Assembly (NCBI GenBank): GCA_016868855.1
Contig: VGFP01000002.1
Location: 366,372-430,371, forward strand
DNA from: Bacteroidota bacterium
Lineage (GTDB): Bacteria; Bacteroidota; Bacteroidia; Chitinophagales; Chitinophagaceae
Direction of reading: 5' to 3'
DNA: 64,000 bases
The notes under the pieces are model-generated. The model had not been told where the DNA came from, ran no database searches, and was given only the letters and a program-made list of their open reading frames with translations. Each line of letters starts with the position of its first letter. Within the stretch, counting starts at the first letter, position 1. Shown here one piece after another: positions 28,929 to 61,684 of this stretch. Both the position numbers and the translations under genes were made by a program.

Positions 28929-30593
28929 ATGAGTTTTGAAGCGTTAGGAATTGAAGCGTCGTTACTATCAAGCATTCAGTCACTTGGGTTCGTGAACCCA
29001 ACCCCCATACAAGAAAAAGCTATTCCAATCCTCTTAAGCGGTACAAAGGATTTTGTCGGATTGGCCTCTACCGGGACCGGCAAAACGGCTGCATTTGGAC
29101 TCCCATTGTTGCAGTTGGTAGATGAAAATGTCAGGAGCCCTCAAGCCCTGGTGGTTTGTCCCACCCGTGAACTTTGTGTTCAAATTACCAAGGATATTTC
29201 GAATTTTTCCTTAAACAAAAAATCCATCAGATCAGTCGCTGTATATGGTGGTGCTTCCATAGGACAGCAAATCAGGGAGCTAAAGCAAGGTGTTCAGATT
29301 GTGGTAGCCACACCTGGAAGATTGATTGATTTGATTGAAAGAAATGCCATTCAGCTGCAAAACATCTCCTATATCGTATTGGACGAGGCAGATGAAATGC
29401 TGAACATGGGATTCAGGGAGGATATTGAATTTATATTGGGCAATACACCGAATCGAAACAGCATTTGGTTGTTCAGTGCAACCATGCCCAATGAAGTGCG
29501 CCAGGTCAGCAAACGTTTCATGCAGCAACCTGCTGAGATCACCATTGGAAAAGTTAATGCTGCCAACGTAAATATTGATCACCAATTTTATGTAACATCA
29601 GGTGTAAACCGCTATCATACCTTGAAGAGAATCATTGACTTCAATCCTGGTATGTACGGAATTGTTTTTACCAGAACAAAGGCAGACGCACAACATATCA
29701 CAGAATCTTTGATCAGGGAGGGATATGACATAGAAGCATTGCATGGCGATCTTACACAACAGCAGCGTGACAAGGTGATGGCTCGGTTCAGAGAGAAAAG
29801 CTTGCAGCTTCTCATTGCAACGGATGTTGCAGCACGAGGTATCGATGTGCAAGGCATATCACATGTCATCAACTATGAATTACCGGATGATCCGGAAGTC
29901 TATACACACCGAAGCGGAAGAACAGGAAGAGCAGGTAACAGCGGCGTTTGTATTTCATTGGTAACCCAAAGAGAAGTTTATCGCCTTCGTCAAATTGAAA
30001 GGCTCATTAACAATAAATTTCATAAACTGGATATTCCATCCGGGAAGGATGTTTGCAGAAAACAATTTTTTCATTTCATTGATAAAATGTTCATGGCAGA
30101 TATCAGCCACGGTGAATACGAAACCTATGTCCCCCTTCTGAAGGAGAAATTTGCCCACATGGAGAAAGAAGAAATTCTTCAACGTGTTGCGGCCTTAGAA
30201 TTTGACCGCTTTTTACAGTACTATGAAAATGCAGCTGACTTGAATGTGAGAGATGATAGAAAAGCTGAACGTGGCACCCAAAAAAGAGAGCGATCCTCAG
30301 CATCCGGCCTGCGAACATCTGGTGGAAGTGGAGGCGGTTACAAAAAGCTCTTTATCAATTTGGGGACCAAGGACGGTTTTTACAAAGCAAGTTTTTTGCA
30401 ATTCATTCTGGATTTAAGTGATCTCAACAAAGACGTGTTGGGTAAAATCGACATGAAAGAAATGAACAGCTGGGTAGAGATAGAGAGCGGTGCTGCCAAT
30501 CAGATGATGCGATCCATTGATGGTAAAAAATTCAAGGGAAGAAAGATTCGCATGAATGATGCAGACAGCGGGGGCCCTAGAAAAAGATTTTAA
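28929..30593 (+). CDS. DEAD-box RNA helicase with C-terminal DbpA-type RNA-binding domain
   Basis: ASTGTGKTAAFG, VLDEADEMLNMG, FSATMP, HRSGRTGRAG; C-terminal KKLFINLGTKDGFYKASFLQFI. Confidence 0.92.
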   Translation: MSFEALGIEASLLSSIQSLGFVNPTPIQEKAIPILLSGTKDFVGLASTGTGKTAAFGLPLLQLVDENVRSPQALVVCPTRELCVQITKDISNFSLNKKSIRSVAVYGGASIGQQIRELKQGVQIVVATPGRLIDLIERNAIQLQNISYIVLDEADEMLNMGFREDIEFILGNTPNRNSIWLFSATMPNEVRQVSKRFMQQPAEITIGKVNAANVNIDHQFYVTSGVNRYHTLKRIIDFNPGMYGIVFTRTKADAQHITESLIREGYDIEALHGDLTQQQRDKVMARFREKSLQLLIATDVAARGIDVQGISHVINYELPDDPEVYTHRSGRTGRAGNSGVCISLVTQREVYRLRQIERLINNKFHKLDIPSGKDVCRKQFFHFIDKMFMADISHGEYETYVPLLKEKFAHMEKEEILQRVAALEFDRFLQYYENAADLNVRDDRKAERGTQKRERSSASGLRTSGGSGGGYKKLFINLGTKDGFYKASFLQFILDLSDLNKDVLGKIDMKEMNSWVEIESGAANQMMRSIDGKKFKGRKIRMNDADSGGPRKRF

Positions 30594-30598
30594 CTTTT

Positions 30599-30628
30599 TT
30601 GTTTAGTTTCTCAATTAACCTATATTTG
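30599..30628 (+). promoter_or_regulatory. Bacteroidota-type promoter (TTG-N19-TATATTTG) for the aromatic leader/operon
   Basis: TTG 30599-30601, 19-nt spacer, TAnnTTTG 30621-30628; matches the -33/-7 consensus described in Bacteroides. Confidence 0.65.
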
Positions 30629-30632
30629 TTAG

Positions 30633-30707
30633 ATGTCAACAAGAAGCAACTGGTACTCTTTTTATTTTTATTTCTACTTTACAAGTAGACCGGGAGCTCT
30701 TTGTTGA
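30633..30707 (+). CDS. Aromatic amino acid operon leader peptide MSTRSNWYSFYFYFYFTSRPGALC
   Basis: 24 codons: W Y S F Y F Y F Y F run (9 aromatic of 10); overlaps antiterminator arm; precedes terminator and pheA. Confidence 0.85.
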   Translation: MSTRSNWYSFYFYFYFTSRPGALC

Positions 30708-30739
30708 AACCAAAAAAGAAACATTATCTCAACATAAAG

Positions 30740-30768
30740 ATCCCGGTCAACAGCCGGGATATTTTTTT
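30740..30768 (+). terminator. Attenuator terminator upstream of pheA
   Basis: ATCCCGG (30740-30746) TCAACAG CCGGGAT (30754-30760) A TTTTTTT. Confidence 0.85.
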
Positions 30769-30779
30769 AATGAAAGTGA

Positions 30780-31655
30780 ATGAAAAGGATCAATTCAAAG
30801 GGGCTAGTAACAAGCAGCAAGGCAAGAGGAGAAAAGCCTGTCGCAATACAGGGATATGAGGGAAGCTTTCACCAGGTGGCCGCAAGAATATTTTTTGGAA
30901 AGAATGTAGATATCCTGCCATGTGCCACTTTTATCGATTTGATAAAAGCAGTATCCAATAAAAAAAATACCCGAGGAGGTGTGATGGCTATTGAAAATTC
31001 AATTGCTGGAAGCATCATGCCGAATTATAATCTGCTTCAAAAATCAACATTGTTTGTTGCAGGAGAAGTTTATCTGCAGATCAATCAAAACCTGCTTGTA
31101 AATCCCGGGGTTCAATTGCAAGACATCAAGGAAGTGCACTCGCATCCCATGGCATTGCAACAATGCCTTGGTTATTTGACAAAATTTCCGTGGAAACTGA
31201 TAGAATCAGATGATACTGCTCTCAGCGCAAAACATATTCATCAGCGCAAAAGCAAACACATTGCTGCGATTGCGAGTGATTTATCAGCTGAATTATTTGA
31301 CCTGCACATGATTGCTCCCAACATTCACGATGTAAAAGATAATTATACCAGATTTCTGATACTGCAGCAAAACGAAGAGGTGGTAACAGATGCCAACAAG
31401 GCATCGATCAATTTTCACACCGATCATGCACAGGGGAGTTTGGCAAGGGTGTTAACGGTCATCGCAAAAGAAGGAGTCAACCTGAGCAAGTTGCAATCAT
31501 TTCCCATTGCCGGGAGCAGATTCAATTACGGCTTTCATGCTGACCTGGAATTTGATCATGTTGATCAATTCAGGGCGGTCATGGGGAAAATGAAATCACT
31601 TACAAAATTCATCAGGGTATTGGGTATCTATAAAAAAGGAAAGTTTAATATTTAG
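30780..31655 (+). CDS. pheA: Prephenate dehydratase with ACT domain
   Basis: IQGYEGSFHQVAA, AIENSIAGSI, SHPMALQQC, NYTRFLIL; C-terminal ACT domain. Confidence 0.92.
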   Translation: MKRINSKGLVTSSKARGEKPVAIQGYEGSFHQVAARIFFGKNVDILPCATFIDLIKAVSNKKNTRGGVMAIENSIAGSIMPNYNLLQKSTLFVAGEVYLQINQNLLVNPGVQLQDIKEVHSHPMALQQCLGYLTKFPWKLIESDDTALSAKHIHQRKSKHIAAIASDLSAELFDLHMIAPNIHDVKDNYTRFLILQQNEEVVTDANKASINFHTDHAQGSLARVLTVIAKEGVNLSKLQSFPIAGSRFNYGFHADLEFDHVDQFRAVMGKMKSLTKFIRVLGIYKKGKFNI

Positions 31656-31658
31656 ATC

Positions 31659-32834
31659 ATGATTGAAGTTGCTGGTCGCTTGCATGGAATAGGTGAATAT
31701 TATTTCGCAACAAAACTGCGGGAGATTGATGTATTGAACAAAGCTGGACACAGCGTCATCAACCTGGGAATTGGGAGTCCGGATCTCCCTCCTCATCCCA
31801 CTGTCATTGAGACCTTGCATCAGGAGGCGGCGAAACAACATAACCATGCCTACCAATCTTACAAGGGATCTCCAGTGCTTCGTCATGCCATCTCAGAATG
31901 GTATAAAAACAACTATGATGTTGCTGTGGATCCTGAAACCGAGGTGCTTCCTTTGATTGGCAGCAAAGAAGGTATCATGCATATATGCATGACTTATCTC
32001 GACAAGGGTGATGCAGCACTTGTTCCCAATCCTGGTTATCCAACCTACAGCGCTGCTGTCAAGCTATCAGGAGGTGAAGTGTTATCATATGAATTGAGGG
32101 CAGAGAACCATTGGCATCCGGTTGTGGAGGAACTGAAGACATTGCTTGATGCTCATCAGTCAAATGGCAGCAGGATCAAGCTGCTCTTCCTCAATTATCC
32201 TCATATGCCAACCGGTCAGGCGCCTGATGCGACCCGCTTACAATCTCTGATTGAATTTGCCAAGGAACATGATATTGTAATCATTCATGACAATCCTTAT
32301 AGTTTTATTTTGAATGATCATCCATTCAGTTTGTTATCACTTGATCAGGAAAAAAACACAGTGATTGAACTAAACTCTTTGAGCAAATCACACAACATGG
32401 CCGGATGGCGTGTGGGAATGATTGTGGCTTCTCAAAAGCATGTCAACAATATCATGCGTTTCAAAAGCAACATGGATTCAGGAATGTTTTTACCAGTCCA
32501 GCTTGCCGCTGCCAAAGCATTGACACTAGATGCATCCTGGTATGCGGAGGTCAATAAAATATATGCAGAACGAAAACTGCTTGCCTGTAAGTTGCTGGAT
32601 GCTGTGGAATGTATATATGATAAAAGTCAGGTGGGTATGTTTATTTGGGCCAAGATTCCTTCTTCATATGCAAACGGATATGCTCTGAGTGATGCACTGC
32701 TGAACCAATCCAAGGTCTTCATTACACCGGGCGGAATATTCGGCACCGCCGGAGATGCGTATGTGAGGGTAAGTCTCTGCAGCAAAAAGGAATTGCTTCA
32801 GGAAGCAATAGGAAGAATTCAAAAAATGCATTAA
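31659..32834 (+). CDS. Class I/II PLP aminotransferase
   Basis: INLGIGSPDLPPHP, NPGYPTYSAAV, ELNSLSKSHNMAGWRVGM. Confidence 0.9.
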   Translation: MIEVAGRLHGIGEYYFATKLREIDVLNKAGHSVINLGIGSPDLPPHPTVIETLHQEAAKQHNHAYQSYKGSPVLRHAISEWYKNNYDVAVDPETEVLPLIGSKEGIMHICMTYLDKGDAALVPNPGYPTYSAAVKLSGGEVLSYELRAENHWHPVVEELKTLLDAHQSNGSRIKLLFLNYPHMPTGQAPDATRLQSLIEFAKEHDIVIIHDNPYSFILNDHPFSLLSLDQEKNTVIELNSLSKSHNMAGWRVGMIVASQKHVNNIMRFKSNMDSGMFLPVQLAAAKALTLDASWYAEVNKIYAERKLLACKLLDAVECIYDKSQVGMFIWAKIPSSYANGYALSDALLNQSKVFITPGGIFGTAGDAYVRVSLCSKKELLQEAIGRIQKMH

Positions 32835-32842
32835 TCAACAAT

Positions 32843-33691
32843 TTGATGATCAAAAAAATAACAATAGTAGGTATTGGATTGATGGGAGGTTCACTTGCAA
32901 TGCAGTGCCGAAGTAAAGGTATTGCTGCACATATCATTGGTGTAGATGAAAATCCTGAACACGCATCAGATGCATTGTCTATGCATTTGGTTGATGAAGT
33001 GTTGCCTTTGGATGATGCCATCGCAACATCAGATGTAATTGTGCTGACAGTCCCCATGAATGCATTGGTTGGACTCCTGCCCAGTGTTCTTGATAAAGTG
33101 AAACAGCAAGTTGTACTCGACATGGGTTCAACAAAAAATATACTTGCCAAGTCAGTCGATGCACATGCCAACAGGGGAAGATTTGTTGCTACCCATCCGA
33201 TGTGGGGTACGGAGTACAGCGGACCCCGTGCAGCTGTTGAAGGTGCTTTTGAAAACAAAGCTGTTATACTCTGTGATACCGAAAAAACAGATGCAGATGC
33301 GCTGGATTTTGTGAAGGATTTGTACCGGAAGTTAAATATGCATATCATAGAGATGAATGCGGTTGACCATGATTTGCATGCTGCATATGTAAGTCATATT
33401 TCTCACATCACATCATTTGCACTTGCCAATACAGTCCTTGAAAAAGAACGAGAGGATAAAGCCATATTTGAGATGGCCAGCGCAGGTTTTGAAAGTACAG
33501 TTCGTTTGGCCAAGAGCAATCCAGATATGTGGACACCTATTTTGATGCAGAACAAGGACAATGTGCTGGATGTGTTGAATGAGCATATCAGCCAATTGCG
33601 CAAGTTCAAATCCTGCTTGGAAAAAGAAAATTGGGACTACCTGAAGGAATTGATGTTACACGCGAACCAAATCAAAAGAATCATACAATAA
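32843..33691 (+). CDS. tyrA: Prephenate dehydrogenase
   Basis: ITIVGIGLMGGSLAMQCR; VATHPMWGTEYSGPRAA; AAYVSHISHITSFAL; operon context. Confidence 0.9.
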   Translation: MMIKKITIVGIGLMGGSLAMQCRSKGIAAHIIGVDENPEHASDALSMHLVDEVLPLDDAIATSDVIVLTVPMNALVGLLPSVLDKVKQQVVLDMGSTKNILAKSVDAHANRGRFVATHPMWGTEYSGPRAAVEGAFENKAVILCDTEKTDADALDFVKDLYRKLNMHIIEMNAVDHDLHAAYVSHISHITSFALANTVLEKEREDKAIFEMASAGFESTVRLAKSNPDMWTPILMQNKDNVLDVLNEHISQLRKFKSCLEKENWDYLKELMLHANQIKRIIQ

Positions 33692-33723: not shown

Positions 33724-34812
33724 ATGGAAACTTCTCAGCAAACACAACAATCAGCAGTTCTAGCTGCTTGGAACAAACGACCACTTATTATTTCTGGCCC
33801 ATGCAGTGCAGAAACCGAAGATCAGGTATTGGCAACTGCACAGCGGCTCACCAAAACAGGTAAGGTAGATATGTTGCGTGCGGGTATTTGGAAGCCACGT
33901 ACAAAACCCGGTATGTTTGAAGGTATTGGTGCAAAGGGATTGCCGTGGTTACAGCAGGCAAAAAAAATAACCGGACTCCCAACGACTGTTGAAGTGGCAA
34001 CCGGAAAGCAAGTAGAGGATGCGCTGACATTTGATGTGGATGTCTTGTGGGTTGGCGCAAGAACCACTGTCAATCCATTCAGTGTTCAAGAGGTTGCAGA
34101 TGCCCTTCGAGGGGTGAATGTTCCAGTGCTGATCAAAAATCCAATCAACCCAGACCTAGAATTGTGGCAGGGTGCGGTTGAGCGAATTTCAAGAGCAGGC
34201 ATCAAACAAGTTGGTTTGATTCACCGCGGTTTCTCTGCATATGGAAATACGGAATTCCGCAATGCGCCCATGTGGCATCTTGCCATCGAAATGAAAAGAC
34301 GCATGCCTGAATTGCCTATCATCAACGATCCTTCCCATATATGCGGAAGAAGAGATATTTTACAAACAACAGCACAAAAGGCTATAGATCTTGAGTTCGA
34401 CGGACTGATGATTGAAAGCCATATTGATCCGGACAATGCCTGGAGCGATGCAAAACAACAGATTACTCCAGAAGTCCTCGCCGAAATCCTTGACAATATC
34501 ATATGGAGGAAAGAAGATGTTCCTTCTCCCACCTTTCATGCAGCACTTGATAAACTGCGTGAACAAATCAACCACATCGATGATGAACTGATGCAGTTGA
34601 TTGGTCAGCGTATGAATATTGCAGAAAAAATTGGTGAATACAAAAAGAACAACAATGTTACGATCCTTCAAACCTCCCGTTGGAACGAGATCCTGGAAAA
34701 GGCAACCAACAAGGGTTCTAAACTGGGTTTGAGTGCTGAGTTTGTTCAGAAATACATGGACGCAGTACACATGGAAAGCATCAACAGGCAGAATAAAATC
34801 ATGAATGACTGA
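33724..34812 (+). CDS. Bifunctional DAHP synthase (KDO8PS-like type) / chorismate mutase
   Basis: N-term LIISGPCSAETEDQV...RAGIWKPRTKPGMFEGIG; C-term LDKLREQINHIDDELMQLIGQRMNIAEKIGEYKK (AroQ CM). Confidence 0.92.
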   Translation: METSQQTQQSAVLAAWNKRPLIISGPCSAETEDQVLATAQRLTKTGKVDMLRAGIWKPRTKPGMFEGIGAKGLPWLQQAKKITGLPTTVEVATGKQVEDALTFDVDVLWVGARTTVNPFSVQEVADALRGVNVPVLIKNPINPDLELWQGAVERISRAGIKQVGLIHRGFSAYGNTEFRNAPMWHLAIEMKRRMPELPIINDPSHICGRRDILQTTAQKAIDLEFDGLMIESHIDPDNAWSDAKQQITPEVLAEILDNIIWRKEDVPSPTFHAALDKLREQINHIDDELMQLIGQRMNIAEKIGEYKKNNNVTILQTSRWNEILEKATNKGSKLGLSAEFVQKYMDAVHMESINRQNKIMND

Positions 34813-34816
34813 TTGA

Positions 34817-35851
34817 ATGAAAAAGCAAAAACAAGTTTTATCGAGCGGGACAGTCGAGATGTATTTTGACGCTGCATTCAATCAGTTGACCAAGTTGGTT
34901 GATAAGAAGAATGCAGTGATTGTGACAGATGAAAATATTTTTTCAAAGCACAGGTCAAAGTTTAAAAACTGGAATGTCATCACGCTCAAACCTGGTGAGC
35001 AATACAAAATTCAACTTACAGCAGATGCAATCATCGATCAGCTGATTGAATTTCAAGCCGATCGATCTACTACTTTGATCGGAGTAGGTGGGGGTGTGAT
35101 CACAGATCTGACTGGATATGTTGCTTCTATTTTCATGCGTGGAATTCGATTTGGATTTGTTCCAACTACATTGCTCGCCATGGTAGATGCATCCATCGGA
35201 GGTAAAAACGGGGTAGATGTGGGTGCGTACAAAAATCTTGTTGGATCCATTCGTCAGCCTGCATTTCTGCTTTATGACTATGGTTTTTTAAATACTCTAC
35301 CTGACATGGAGTGGTCCAACGGTTTTGCAGAAATCATCAAACACGCCTGCATATTTGATGCCCGCATGTTCGATGAGCTGAAGAAGCATTCTTTGGGTAG
35401 GATCAAGAAAGAAAAAAAACTTCTTGCATACATTGTCGAGAAAAATGTTGCCCTAAAGCTGGCGGTAGTTAAAAAGGATGAGTTTGAAAAGGGTGACCGA
35501 AGGCTGCTTAATTTCGGACATACACTCGGACATGCATTGGAAACACAGTATGATTTGACACATGGACAGGCAGTTGCTCTAGGAATGGTATTTGCCGCAT
35601 GGCTATCTGAAAAAATTCTTGGACTTAAAAAATCATCTGAAATCATTCAGGTATTGGGACAGTATAAATTGCCAACATTTGCATCATTTGACACTGATAG
35701 GGTGTTTACTATTTTGGTGATGGACAAAAAACGCGTAAGCAATACCATGCATTTCATTCTGCTTGACAGAATTGGCAAGGGAGTGGTACATCCTATGAAG
35801 ATCAATCAACTTCAAAAATATGTTTCAACCTATACACAGCTAAATAAATAG
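34817..35851 (+). CDS. aroB: 3-dehydroquinate synthase
   Basis: IGVGGGVITDLTGYVASIFMRGIRFGFVPTTLLAMVDASIGGKNGVD. Confidence 0.95.
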   Translation: MKKQKQVLSSGTVEMYFDAAFNQLTKLVDKKNAVIVTDENIFSKHRSKFKNWNVITLKPGEQYKIQLTADAIIDQLIEFQADRSTTLIGVGGGVITDLTGYVASIFMRGIRFGFVPTTLLAMVDASIGGKNGVDVGAYKNLVGSIRQPAFLLYDYGFLNTLPDMEWSNGFAEIIKHACIFDARMFDELKKHSLGRIKKEKKLLAYIVEKNVALKLAVVKKDEFEKGDRRLLNFGHTLGHALETQYDLTHGQAVALGMVFAAWLSEKILGLKKSSEIIQVLGQYKLPTFASFDTDRVFTILVMDKKRVSNTMHFILLDRIGKGVVHPMKINQLQKYVSTYTQLNK

Positions 35852-35856
35852 TCAAC

Positions 35857-37134
35857 ATGATCGCATACGTTCATCCATCTACCATCAGCGGCAGCATATT
35901 GGCTCCTCGTTCAAAGAGTGATATGCAGCGGGCATGTGCAGCGGCGTTGTTGCACAATGGACGAACAACCATCCATCATCCAGGCAGAAGCAATGATGAC
36001 CTGGCTGCAATTGATGTCATCTCCAAACTGGGTGCGCAGGTCAAAGATTTACATGATAAGATTATAATTGAGAGCAAAGGCGTCAATCCCGCTGAACATG
36101 AAATCAATTGTGGGGAAAGTGGATTGGGAATACGGATGTTTACTCCAATTGCTGCATTATGTGAAAAACAGCTTCTTGTTTCAGGAGTGGGATCGCTGGT
36201 AAGTCGACCTATGCATTTTTTTGATGAAATATTTCCTCAGTTGGGTATTGAAATCAAGTCAAACAATGGAAAACTTCCCCTGCATATAAAAGGTCCCCTG
36301 CAACCATCCAACATTACTGTTGATGGTAGTTTGAGTTCTCAATTCCTGACCGGACTCCTCATGGCCTATGCCGCTTGTAATCCGGTCGATGTAGAAATCA
36401 AAGTTATTGACTTGAAGAGCAAGCCCTATATCGATATGACCCTTCGTGTAATCCGGGCTTTTGGTATGAAGGAACCGCAAGTCAAAGATTATGCTTCATT
36501 TTATTTTGATGAAACAATTCATGAAAATACTCTAGGAGATATTGACTACTCGGTAGAGGGTGATTGGAGTGGAGCTGCGTTTTTATTTGTTGCAGGTGCC
36601 ATTTCCAATCGAATTGAAATAAAAGGAATGCAAGCCGATTCTGTACAAGCAGATAAAAAAATTTTAGAGGCGATCACAGATGCGGGTGCCCAGGTTCAAT
36701 ACCATGAGGGGGTATACAATGTTTGTCCTGCTTCCTTAACGTCATTTGAATTCGACGCAACTGAATGCCCGGATTTATTTCCTCCGCTGGTTGCATTGGC
36801 TGCACATTGTAAAGGCATCACCCGTATCAAAGGAATAAATAGGCTGACCCATAAGGAAAGTAACAGGGCACTGACTCTACAAGAAGTATTTGGTACATTG
36901 GGGATTAAAATTGATCTGGTGGATAATGATATGTTGATCCATGGAGGCATTCATATCAAATCTGCCAAGGTGCATTCACACCATGATCACCGTATTGCGA
37001 TGGCAGCTGCTGTCGCTGGACTCAAAGCGGATGGTATTGTGCAGATCGAAGATGCAGAGGCAATCAATAAATCATATCCTGCTTTTTACAATGATTTAAT
37101 TGCATTGGGAGCAGTATTACAATTTGAACAATAA
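35857..37134 (+). CDS. aroA: 3-phosphoshikimate 1-carboxyvinyltransferase (EPSP synthase)
   Basis: GSILAPRSKSDMQRACAAALL; GESGLGIRMF; SSQFLTGLLMA; DHRIAMAAAVAGL. Confidence 0.93.
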   Translation: MIAYVHPSTISGSILAPRSKSDMQRACAAALLHNGRTTIHHPGRSNDDLAAIDVISKLGAQVKDLHDKIIIESKGVNPAEHEINCGESGLGIRMFTPIAALCEKQLLVSGVGSLVSRPMHFFDEIFPQLGIEIKSNNGKLPLHIKGPLQPSNITVDGSLSSQFLTGLLMAYAACNPVDVEIKVIDLKSKPYIDMTLRVIRAFGMKEPQVKDYASFYFDETIHENTLGDIDYSVEGDWSGAAFLFVAGAISNRIEIKGMQADSVQADKKILEAITDAGAQVQYHEGVYNVCPASLTSFEFDATECPDLFPPLVALAAHCKGITRIKGINRLTHKESNRALTLQEVFGTLGIKIDLVDNDMLIHGGIHIKSAKVHSHHDHRIAMAAAVAGLKADGIVQIEDAEAINKSYPAFYNDLIALGAVLQFEQ

Positions 37135-37143
37135 TTATCGACT

Positions 37144-38136
37144 ATGAATCATTTTGGAAAACTATTTACAGTCACCATATTTGGCGAATCACATGGTGAA
37201 AGTGTTGGTGTAGTAATCGATGGGTGTCCTGCTGGCATGCCCCTTTCCGTGGAAGATTTTGTAAAAGATACCGAAAGGCGAAAGGGTGGTATGCAAAAAG
37301 GGACTACACCCAGACAAGAAGAAGATTTGCCGCTTTTTAAAAGTGGATTGTTCAATGGTAAGACTACGGGAGCACCACTGATGCTGTTGTTTGAAAATAC
37401 GAATACCCGCTCGGGGGATTATGAAAAACAGCGGGCAGTTCCCCGACCCGGACATGCAGATTTTGTGGCCAATAAAAAGTATGGAGGTTTTGAGGATTAC
37501 AGGGGTGGTGGGCATTTCAGCGGACGATTGACACTTTGTTTGGTGGCTGCAGGTGTTGTTGCAAAAAAAATACTGAAAAATATCGAAGTTGTCGCAAAAG
37601 TAATTTCAATTACCGGCGAGACTGACCTGGATAAAGGACTTCAGAAAGGAATTGATGCGAAAGATTCTGTTGGCGGGATCGTTTCCTGTAAAGTAAAAGG
37701 ACTTCCACTGGGACTCGGAGAGCCATTTTTTGATTCTGTTGAGTCTTTGATATCACACGCTGTTTTCTCTATTCCTGCTGTTCGCGGCATAGAATTTGGC
37801 ACTGGTTTTGAGGCTGCCAATATGTTTGGCTCTTCACACAATGATGCAATCATAGATGCTGCAGGGAAGACTGCAACCAATCATGCAGGGGGTGTTGTAG
37901 GTGGTATCACCAATGGAAATGAATTGCAATTCAAGATCGCCATCAAACCTACATCATCAACACCGCAAGAGCAACAAACATTGAATTGGGAATCGAACCA
38001 GGTGGAGTCTTTCGCAGTGAGAGGAAGACATGATTTGTGCATTGCATTGCGCGTTCCACCAGTATTGGAAGGAGTTACAGCCATGGTATTGGTTGATCTG
38101 ATGATGAGAGAGCAATTGATCAGAAGACTCTATTAA
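37144..38136 (+). CDS. aroC: Chorismate synthase
   Basis: FGESHGESVGVVIDGCPAGMPL; RPGHADFVANKKYGGFEDYRGGGHFSGR; GRHDLCIALRVPPVLEGV. Confidence 0.96.
   Translation: MNHFGKLFTVTIFGESHGESVGVVIDGCPAGMPLSVEDFVKDTERRKGGMQKGTTPRQEEDLPLFKSGLFNGKTTGAPLMLLFENTNTRSGDYEKQRAVPRPGHADFVANKKYGGFEDYRGGGHFSGRLTLCLVAAGVVAKKILKNIEVVAKVISITGETDLDKGLQKGIDAKDSVGGIVSCKVKGLPLGLGEPFFDSVESLISHAVFSIPAVRGIEFGTGFEAANMFGSSHNDAIIDAAGKTATNHAGGVVGGITNGNELQFKIAIKPTSSTPQEQQTLNWESNQVESFAVRGRHDLCIALRVPPVLEGVTAMVLVDLMMREQLIRRLY

Positions 38137-61611: not shown

Positions 61612-61684
<73 letters not shown>

Follow-up and report, generated by a model that had tools for sequence, protein, structure and literature searches.

A putative leader-peptide attenuator with Phe and Tyr control codons ahead of the pheA to aroC operon in Chitinophagaceae

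A 24-codon open reading frame located just before an aromatic amino acid operon of a Chitinophagaceae genome is very probably a shortage sensor that switches the downstream genes on through ribosome stalling. With high confidence, the evidence points to a ribosome-mediated transcription attenuator that would sense both Phe and Tyr on behalf of the whole chorismate-to-Phe/Tyr operon. The frame (MSTRSNWYSFYFYFYFTSRPGALC, 24 codons followed by TGA) occupies positions 30633 to 30707 of the plus strand in the window, i.e. the complete 64-kb stretch of DNA analysed here. A first-pass annotation had given its sequence, coordinates (ATG at 30633, TGA ending at 30707) and translation exactly. Its observation of nine aromatic residues in ten consecutive codons was also borne out: the control codons W Y S F Y F Y F Y F (codons 7 to 16, 30651 to 30680, plus strand), whose aromatic identity is kept family-wide, form the single place of this kind in the 64 kb on both strands and in all frames, the runner-up reaching seven out of ten. 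A DEAD-box helicase gene stops about 40 nt ahead of the leader, and 72 nt separate the leader from pheA.

Seven genes follow, all on the plus strand and with gaps not exceeding about 30 nt, and Pfam matches agreed with the names previously given to them. They encode prephenate dehydratase (pheA, 30780 to 31655; PDT, E 3.8e-54), a class I/II aminotransferase (31659 to 32834; Aminotran_1_2), prephenate dehydrogenase (tyrA, 32843 to 33691; PDH_N and PDH_C), a DAHP synthase fused to a type II chorismate mutase (33724 to 34812; DAHP_synth_1 and CM_2), 3-dehydroquinate synthase (aroB, 34817 to 35851; DHQ_synthase), EPSP synthase (aroA, 35857 to 37134; EPSP_synthase) and chorismate synthase (aroC, 37144 to 38136; Chorismate_synt), the last of the run, the next gene being on the other strand. 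The pheA to aroC order was present in all 18 family genomes examined (about 10 kb each), and the helicase gene often lies after tyrA, ahead of the DAHP synthase gene. The genomes L249 and L250, which belong to other families of the class, retain respectively only the first four genes together and a different subset. The DEAD-box RNA helicase, which carries a DbpA RNA-binding domain (28929 to 30593 in the window; also L231 to L245), is tied to the operon: its gene lies directly upstream of pheA at 25 of 110 loci and in the gap between tyrA and the DAHP synthase gene at others. The leader accompanies pheA with or without this upstream gene. The source assembly (1.43 Mb, 14 contigs, 87% completeness) is small for the family, most sampled relatives having 2.5 to 8 Mb.

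Conservation was analysed among 149 Chitinophagaceae genomes, pheA being found in 104 of them; six further named loci brought the set to 110 loci. A leader was scored where seven or more out of ten residues encoded upstream of pheA were aromatic. An aromatic short ORF was scored at 104 of the 110 loci; the remainder includes a contig that stops short of the region and a few loci whose leader is weak or missing. The runs of 97 non-identical leaders totalled 533 Phe, 334 Tyr and 20 Trp codons; every TTN codon encoded Phe (373 TTT and 160 TTC, with neither TTA nor TTG) and every TAN codon Tyr (175 TAC and 159 TAT), although this count is a biased test of conservation because the runs were selected by their aromatic content. 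Such free synonymous use without Leu indicates that the encoded amino acids are conserved and not merely T-rich DNA. The comparison of relatives proposed in the first-pass annotation supported its reading: the aromatic run was conserved, with synonymous drift across genera only and none visible in the nearest relatives. The F/Y run was identical in DNA at L001, L031, L033 and L035, and in the near relatives L031, L033 and L035 the spacer before the terminator had changed while the run remained identical.

The composition of the runs identifies the control codons as Phe and Tyr. At least three F and at least two Y were present in 95 of the 97 distinct leaders, and W occurred in the run of only 19. 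The combined Phe and Tyr sensor that had been suggested is supported by this conservation; its possible extension to Trp is unlikely, because W is rare in the runs and because trpE loci of the family carry WWW leaders of their own. Trp was rejected as a third signal on a family-wide basis, although the nearest relatives retain W7. Among 30 sampled trpE loci of the family (L261 to L290), 27 displayed three to four consecutive W (WWWHTN type) and one more displayed two; these leaders often begin 4 to 8 nt past a TAnnTTTG or CATATTTG box. The source genome itself has a candidate trpE leader with a single W (MKSINNNNGWHTISQKG; L200, contig C1 near 385 kb, minus strand), perhaps a decayed one. It also has a His leader before hisG (MSPILNMHHHHHFFPKG; L199, contig C1 near 273 kb, minus strand), whose ATG lies 4 nt past TACCTTTG and which is followed by a terminator-like hairpin; no Rfam family matched it at threshold. 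A His-rich leader close to a box was found at most of 30 sampled hisG loci of the family. Taken together, the joint occurrence of F and Y in 95 of 97 leaders and the separate trpE and hisG leaders designate Phe and Tyr as the natural signals for the pheA operon.

An attenuator sensing Phe alone (or Tyr alone), in which the other codon would merely be tolerated since a single base separates F from Y codons, is the reading that competes best with this dual sensor. Phe codons do outnumber Tyr codons (533 vs 334), and the E. coli pheL leader senses Phe only. However, Leu and Cys are also one base away from Phe and are almost absent from the runs (0 Leu, 6 Cys), nearly every leader combines the two residues at the level given above, and the operon holds both pheA and tyrA. 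A single-amino-acid sensor is consequently considered unlikely, while retaining some credibility.

The terminator announced upstream of pheA in the first-pass annotation was indeed present. It is a strong intrinsic terminator reading ATCCCGGT-CAACA-GCCGGGAT-ATTTTTTT (TTTTTTT) at 30740 to 30768, past the leader stop and ahead of pheA, which starts at 30780. The terminator scan detected such a structure after the leader at 101 of 104 family loci, the three others being without one. No terminator fits within the scanned region at L012 and L040, owing to the proximity of the leader to the pheA match. At L040, AAAGAGTCCCGG occurs just before the cut of the scanned region, which suggests that the true pheA start may be downstream of the match start.

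Four segments can be delineated on the plus strand of the window. Segment 1 (30635 to 30653, leader codons 1 to 7) is the protector strand and pairs with segment 2 (30687 to 30708), which corresponds to the tail of the leader ORF and comprises the antiterminator strand (30687 to 30703, with its core GACCGGGA at 30688 to 30695) and the protector partner (30689 to 30708). Segment 3 (30736 to 30749) consists of the terminator 5' arm (30740 to 30747) with the flanks that pair with segment 2, and segment 4 (30753 to 30768) of the 3' arm (30753 to 30760) and the T tract (30762 to 30768). The antiterminator of the window pairs AGACCGGGAGCTCTTTG (30687 to 30703) with AAAGATCCCGGTCA (30736 to 30749) with a dG of -19.4, and none of 200 shuffles was as good. 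In the ribosome-free fold of the window leader, codons 1 to 7 pair with the tail; this protector (GTCAACAAGAAGCAACTGG with ACCGGGAGCTCTTTGTTGAA, dG -18.6) was better than 200 of 200 shuffles. Across the family, the median distance is 6 nt from the end of the F/Y run to the antiterminator strand and 24 nt from the stop codon to the terminator.

Both pairings co-vary among relatives. The ORF tail paired with the terminator 5' arm better than shuffled tails at 100 of 101 loci with p<0.05 (97 with p<=0.01), and each leader was fitted better by its own terminator arm than by those of other species (mean -18.3 vs -15.1, Wilcoxon p 5e-14), these and the following p-values being guides and not exact probabilities since shuffles keep base content only and the loci share descent, so that independence is overstated. 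Where the common CCCGG was replaced (e.g. L058, L071, L096, L101, L103 and L106), all three strands changed together, as in L096 (GATCGGGT/ACCCGATC/GATCGGGT), L101 (GGCGGGA/TCCCGCC/GGCGGGA) and L106 (CTGAGG/CCTCAG). The protector hairpin reached p<0.05 in 52 of 97 family leaders (about 5 expected), with p 6e-13 for own versus foreign pairs, whereas limiting the test to 9 nt of the antiterminator core yielded no information. The protector match was kept with different letters in one subgroup combining an N-terminal TKAY (ACAAAAGCATA) with a tail MLLL (ATGCTTTTGT), and in a second one combining IANT (GCAAATACA) with RVVF (TGTATTTGC). The co-variation of antiterminator and protector corresponds to the classical four-segment anatomy (1:2, 2:3 and 3:4).

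These pairings also bear on other functions that could be attributed to the leader. The short ORF could encode a functional small hydrophobic peptide, the terminator merely ending upstream transcription, and trans-acting leader peptides do exist, as shown by peTrpL from S. meliloti (PMC7298713). In that case, the flanks of the run would hardly be expected to vary by genus in step with RNA pairing, as they do between the two subgroups above, nor the tail to co-vary with the terminator arm, and a functional peptide appears very improbable. Slightly less probable still is the control of the operon by a T-box, a riboswitch or a protein-binding leader in which the ORF would be incidental. Such systems also possess a terminator and an antiterminator, but the RNA ahead of the antiterminator is here a coding run conserved by codon meaning, and no Rfam family reached threshold on the leader. 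T-boxes and known riboswitches were likewise without Rfam match in the leader. A search at gathering and relaxed thresholds yielded only a weak Phe_leader match at this place and, at threshold, a tRNA at 61612 as the sole hit in the whole window; this lack of a family at threshold explains why the pheA leader was missed in annotation. Finally, a chance low-complexity tract before an ordinary terminator has next to no credibility: the tract is T-rich and F/Y-run patterns do occur elsewhere in the source genome (10 matches vs 6 in a reversed control), yet conservation at about 100 loci in a fixed place between promoter and terminator, with no TTA or TTG among the TTN codons, already refutes it. 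Six distinct other F/Y-run places of the source genome were considered, and none combined a leader-like short ORF with a promoter box and a terminator.

The leader-peptide attenuation proposed in the first-pass annotation is supported, at the level of sequence comparison, by the ORF, the terminator, the co-varying alternative pairings, the codons conserved in relatives, the distance between promoter and ATG and the gene order; from these we infer where transcription starts, that the leader is translated, that ribosomes stall on it and that the operon responds to Phe and Tyr. RNA polymerase would start at the leader AUG or a few bases from it, and a ribosome would load on this 5'-terminal AUG and trail the polymerase. 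A shortage of charged tRNA-Phe or tRNA-Tyr would make the ribosome stall within the F/Y run and separate segment 1 from segment 2; the freed segment 2 (its core and tail) would pair with segment 3, preventing the terminator and allowing transcription of pheA to aroC. With ample Phe and Tyr, the ribosome would proceed to the stop codon and cover or crowd segment 2, the terminator would form and transcription would end before pheA. An untranslated leader would lead to the same result, segments 1 and 2 being paired and the terminator formed.

Folding with assumed values for the ribosome footprint gave the antiterminator as the minimum-energy structure when the stall was placed at codon 13, which leaves the RNA free from about 30682. 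It gave the terminator when the ribosome was placed on the last F codon, a stall there being predicted to cause no antitermination, and likewise when it had reached the stop codon. When the first F codon is the stall site, the antiterminator forms before the 3' arm has been synthesised, and the full-length RNA at equilibrium also allows the terminator (-23.5); in this model, antitermination would depend on the antiterminator forming ahead of 3' arm synthesis. Mid-run stalling on F/Y codons is accordingly the inducing event predicted by folding at the various stall positions. Where the leader tail is longer, the CCGGG core may stay partly exposed once the ribosome has reached the stop codon.

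The promoter-like element mentioned in the first-pass annotation is real, and the leader does sit between it and the terminator, but its type needs to be refined: it matches a Bacteroidota sigma-A type promoter (30598 to 30628, plus strand) and not a sigma-70 one. It is made of a -33 TTTG (30598 to 30601), a 19-nt spacer and a -7 box TATATTTG (30621 to 30628) that fits the Bacteroidota sigma-A consensus TAnnTTTG. A sigma-70 promoter was rejected, the scan giving no relevant site on the plus strand. The TTTTTTGTTTA stretch and the -7 box are kept in the near relatives L031, L033 and L035. The leader start codon (30633 to 30635) lies 4 nt past the box and is predicted to be at or next to +1. In F. 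psychrophilum, the sigma-A -7 box spans positions -12 to -5 according to PMC9723704, and with a 4-nt gap the first base of the leader ATG would then be position +1. A -7 box lay 3 to 9 nt before the ATG in 75 of the 97 family leaders with distinct DNA (vs 0.8% in shuffled upstream sequences), with 7 nt as the commonest gap, followed by 4 nt. This spacing predicts an mRNA that is leaderless or has a 5' UTR of a few bases, and the pheA leader mRNA of Chitinophagaceae is probably of this type, an unexpected position for the start codon. Leaderless mRNAs are a minority in Bacteroidota, as judged by figures of about 5.5% of mapped mRNAs in F. psychrophilum (PMC9723704) and about 3.7% of 5' UTRs shorter than 10 nt in B. 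thetaiotaomicron (PMC7366714). Judging from the boxes, promoter and ATG seem as a rule to be closely spaced in the Phe/Tyr, His and Trp leaders of Chitinophagaceae.

The E. coli pheL-pheA region comprises a Phe-rich leader ORF, alternative 1:2, 2:3 and 3:4 hairpins and a terminator before pheA. The E. coli ilvGMEDA leader is a case of multivalent attenuation, one peptide reading several amino acids of a shared pathway. As in the trpL/pheL class, codons for amino acids of the pathway are clustered here in a short ORF just before the first gene, an intrinsic terminator lies between this ORF and pheA, the antiterminator is incompatible with the terminator and takes in the part of the ORF that follows the control codons, and a 1:2 protector hairpin is found, which is strong in the window. 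The likeness to pheL-pheA (RF01859) extends to its Phe-rich leader ORF, alternative hairpins and terminator; in contrast, the Chitinophagaceae leader mixes Phe and Tyr codons, precedes an operon running from pheA to aroC and has a predicted leaderless start. Like ilvGMEDA, it would serve more than one amino acid, the latter being a branched-chain system from a different organism. Membership of Rfam RF01859 (Phe_leader) was rejected: the window leader scored 27.4 bits for a cut-off of 55, a non-specific value since an unrelated strand of L200 reached 26.7 bits, and no match was obtained in the leaders of 20 relatives. The trpL attenuator RNA of S. meliloti (rnTrpL) begins at the leader ATG and is leaderless (PMC7298713); this feature is predicted for the Chitinophagaceae leader as well, but the S. 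meliloti leader senses Trp and belongs to a proteobacterium, and homology is not expected.

The statement that no equivalent is known from Bacteroidota was too strong. PMC9723704 reports clues for leader-peptide attenuation before amino acid operons in Flavobacterium psychrophilum, and also describes, for Flavobacteriaceae, a structured and conserved 5' element ahead of pheA that has no Rfam match. This 5' element concerns the same gene in the same phylum and is likely related to the Chitinophagaceae leader. The Bacteroid-trp motif (RF01692), a proposed cis-regulatory motif of Bacteroidetes listed in PMC2864571, is from the same phylum but had no match in the window at threshold. A literature search covering mostly freely readable papers found none on a pheA leader in Chitinophagaceae. 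The kind of attenuator (pheL, trpL), the Flavobacteriaceae pheA element with its attenuation clues and the leaderless attenuator ORF are already known; our sequence data add the logic of the Phe and Tyr codons, a four-segment structure that co-varies, an operon of seven genes and the predicted near-leaderless start across the family.

In class Bacteroidia outside Chitinophagaceae, an F/Y-rich short ORF preceded most sampled pheA genes (e.g. MSNNRFYFSNSFYFFFSRS). Where a -7 box was found, it was located 17 to 37 nt from the ATG, compared with mostly 3 to 9 nt in Chitinophagaceae, and the near-leaderless form appears particular to the latter family. Of 57 loci with a leader outside the family, 39 had a terminator in the same scan, which misses many Flavobacterium-like loci; these may use weaker hairpins. 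In genomes labelled as belonging to the phylum but not to the class, most pheA genes were without leader, with L117, L179, L180, L181 and L182 as candidate exceptions. The pheA of L117 (genome G405) is 58% identical to that of the window, suggesting that gene and leader were transferred together or that the genome is misplaced.

If correct, the proposed attenuator turns an unannotated mini-gene into a concrete and testable regulatory model for aromatic amino acid synthesis in a large environmental family of Bacteroidota, a phylum in which few attenuators have been worked out and to which a two-amino-acid (Phe and Tyr) sensor would be added. Leaderless attenuator starts in organisms that do not use Shine-Dalgarno sequences also raise the question of how a ribosome is loaded fast enough for the polymerase. 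As a tentative and rather doubtful suggestion, the Phe/Tyr, His and Trp attenuators of Chitinophagaceae could all be leaderless mRNAs, the 5'-terminal AUG being loaded upon emerging, without Shine-Dalgarno sequence, and the 5' end being later buried by the 1:2 hairpin. Only one pioneer ribosome could then be engaged per transcript, making attenuation a single measurement, and ribosome and polymerase would be synchronised from the first base.
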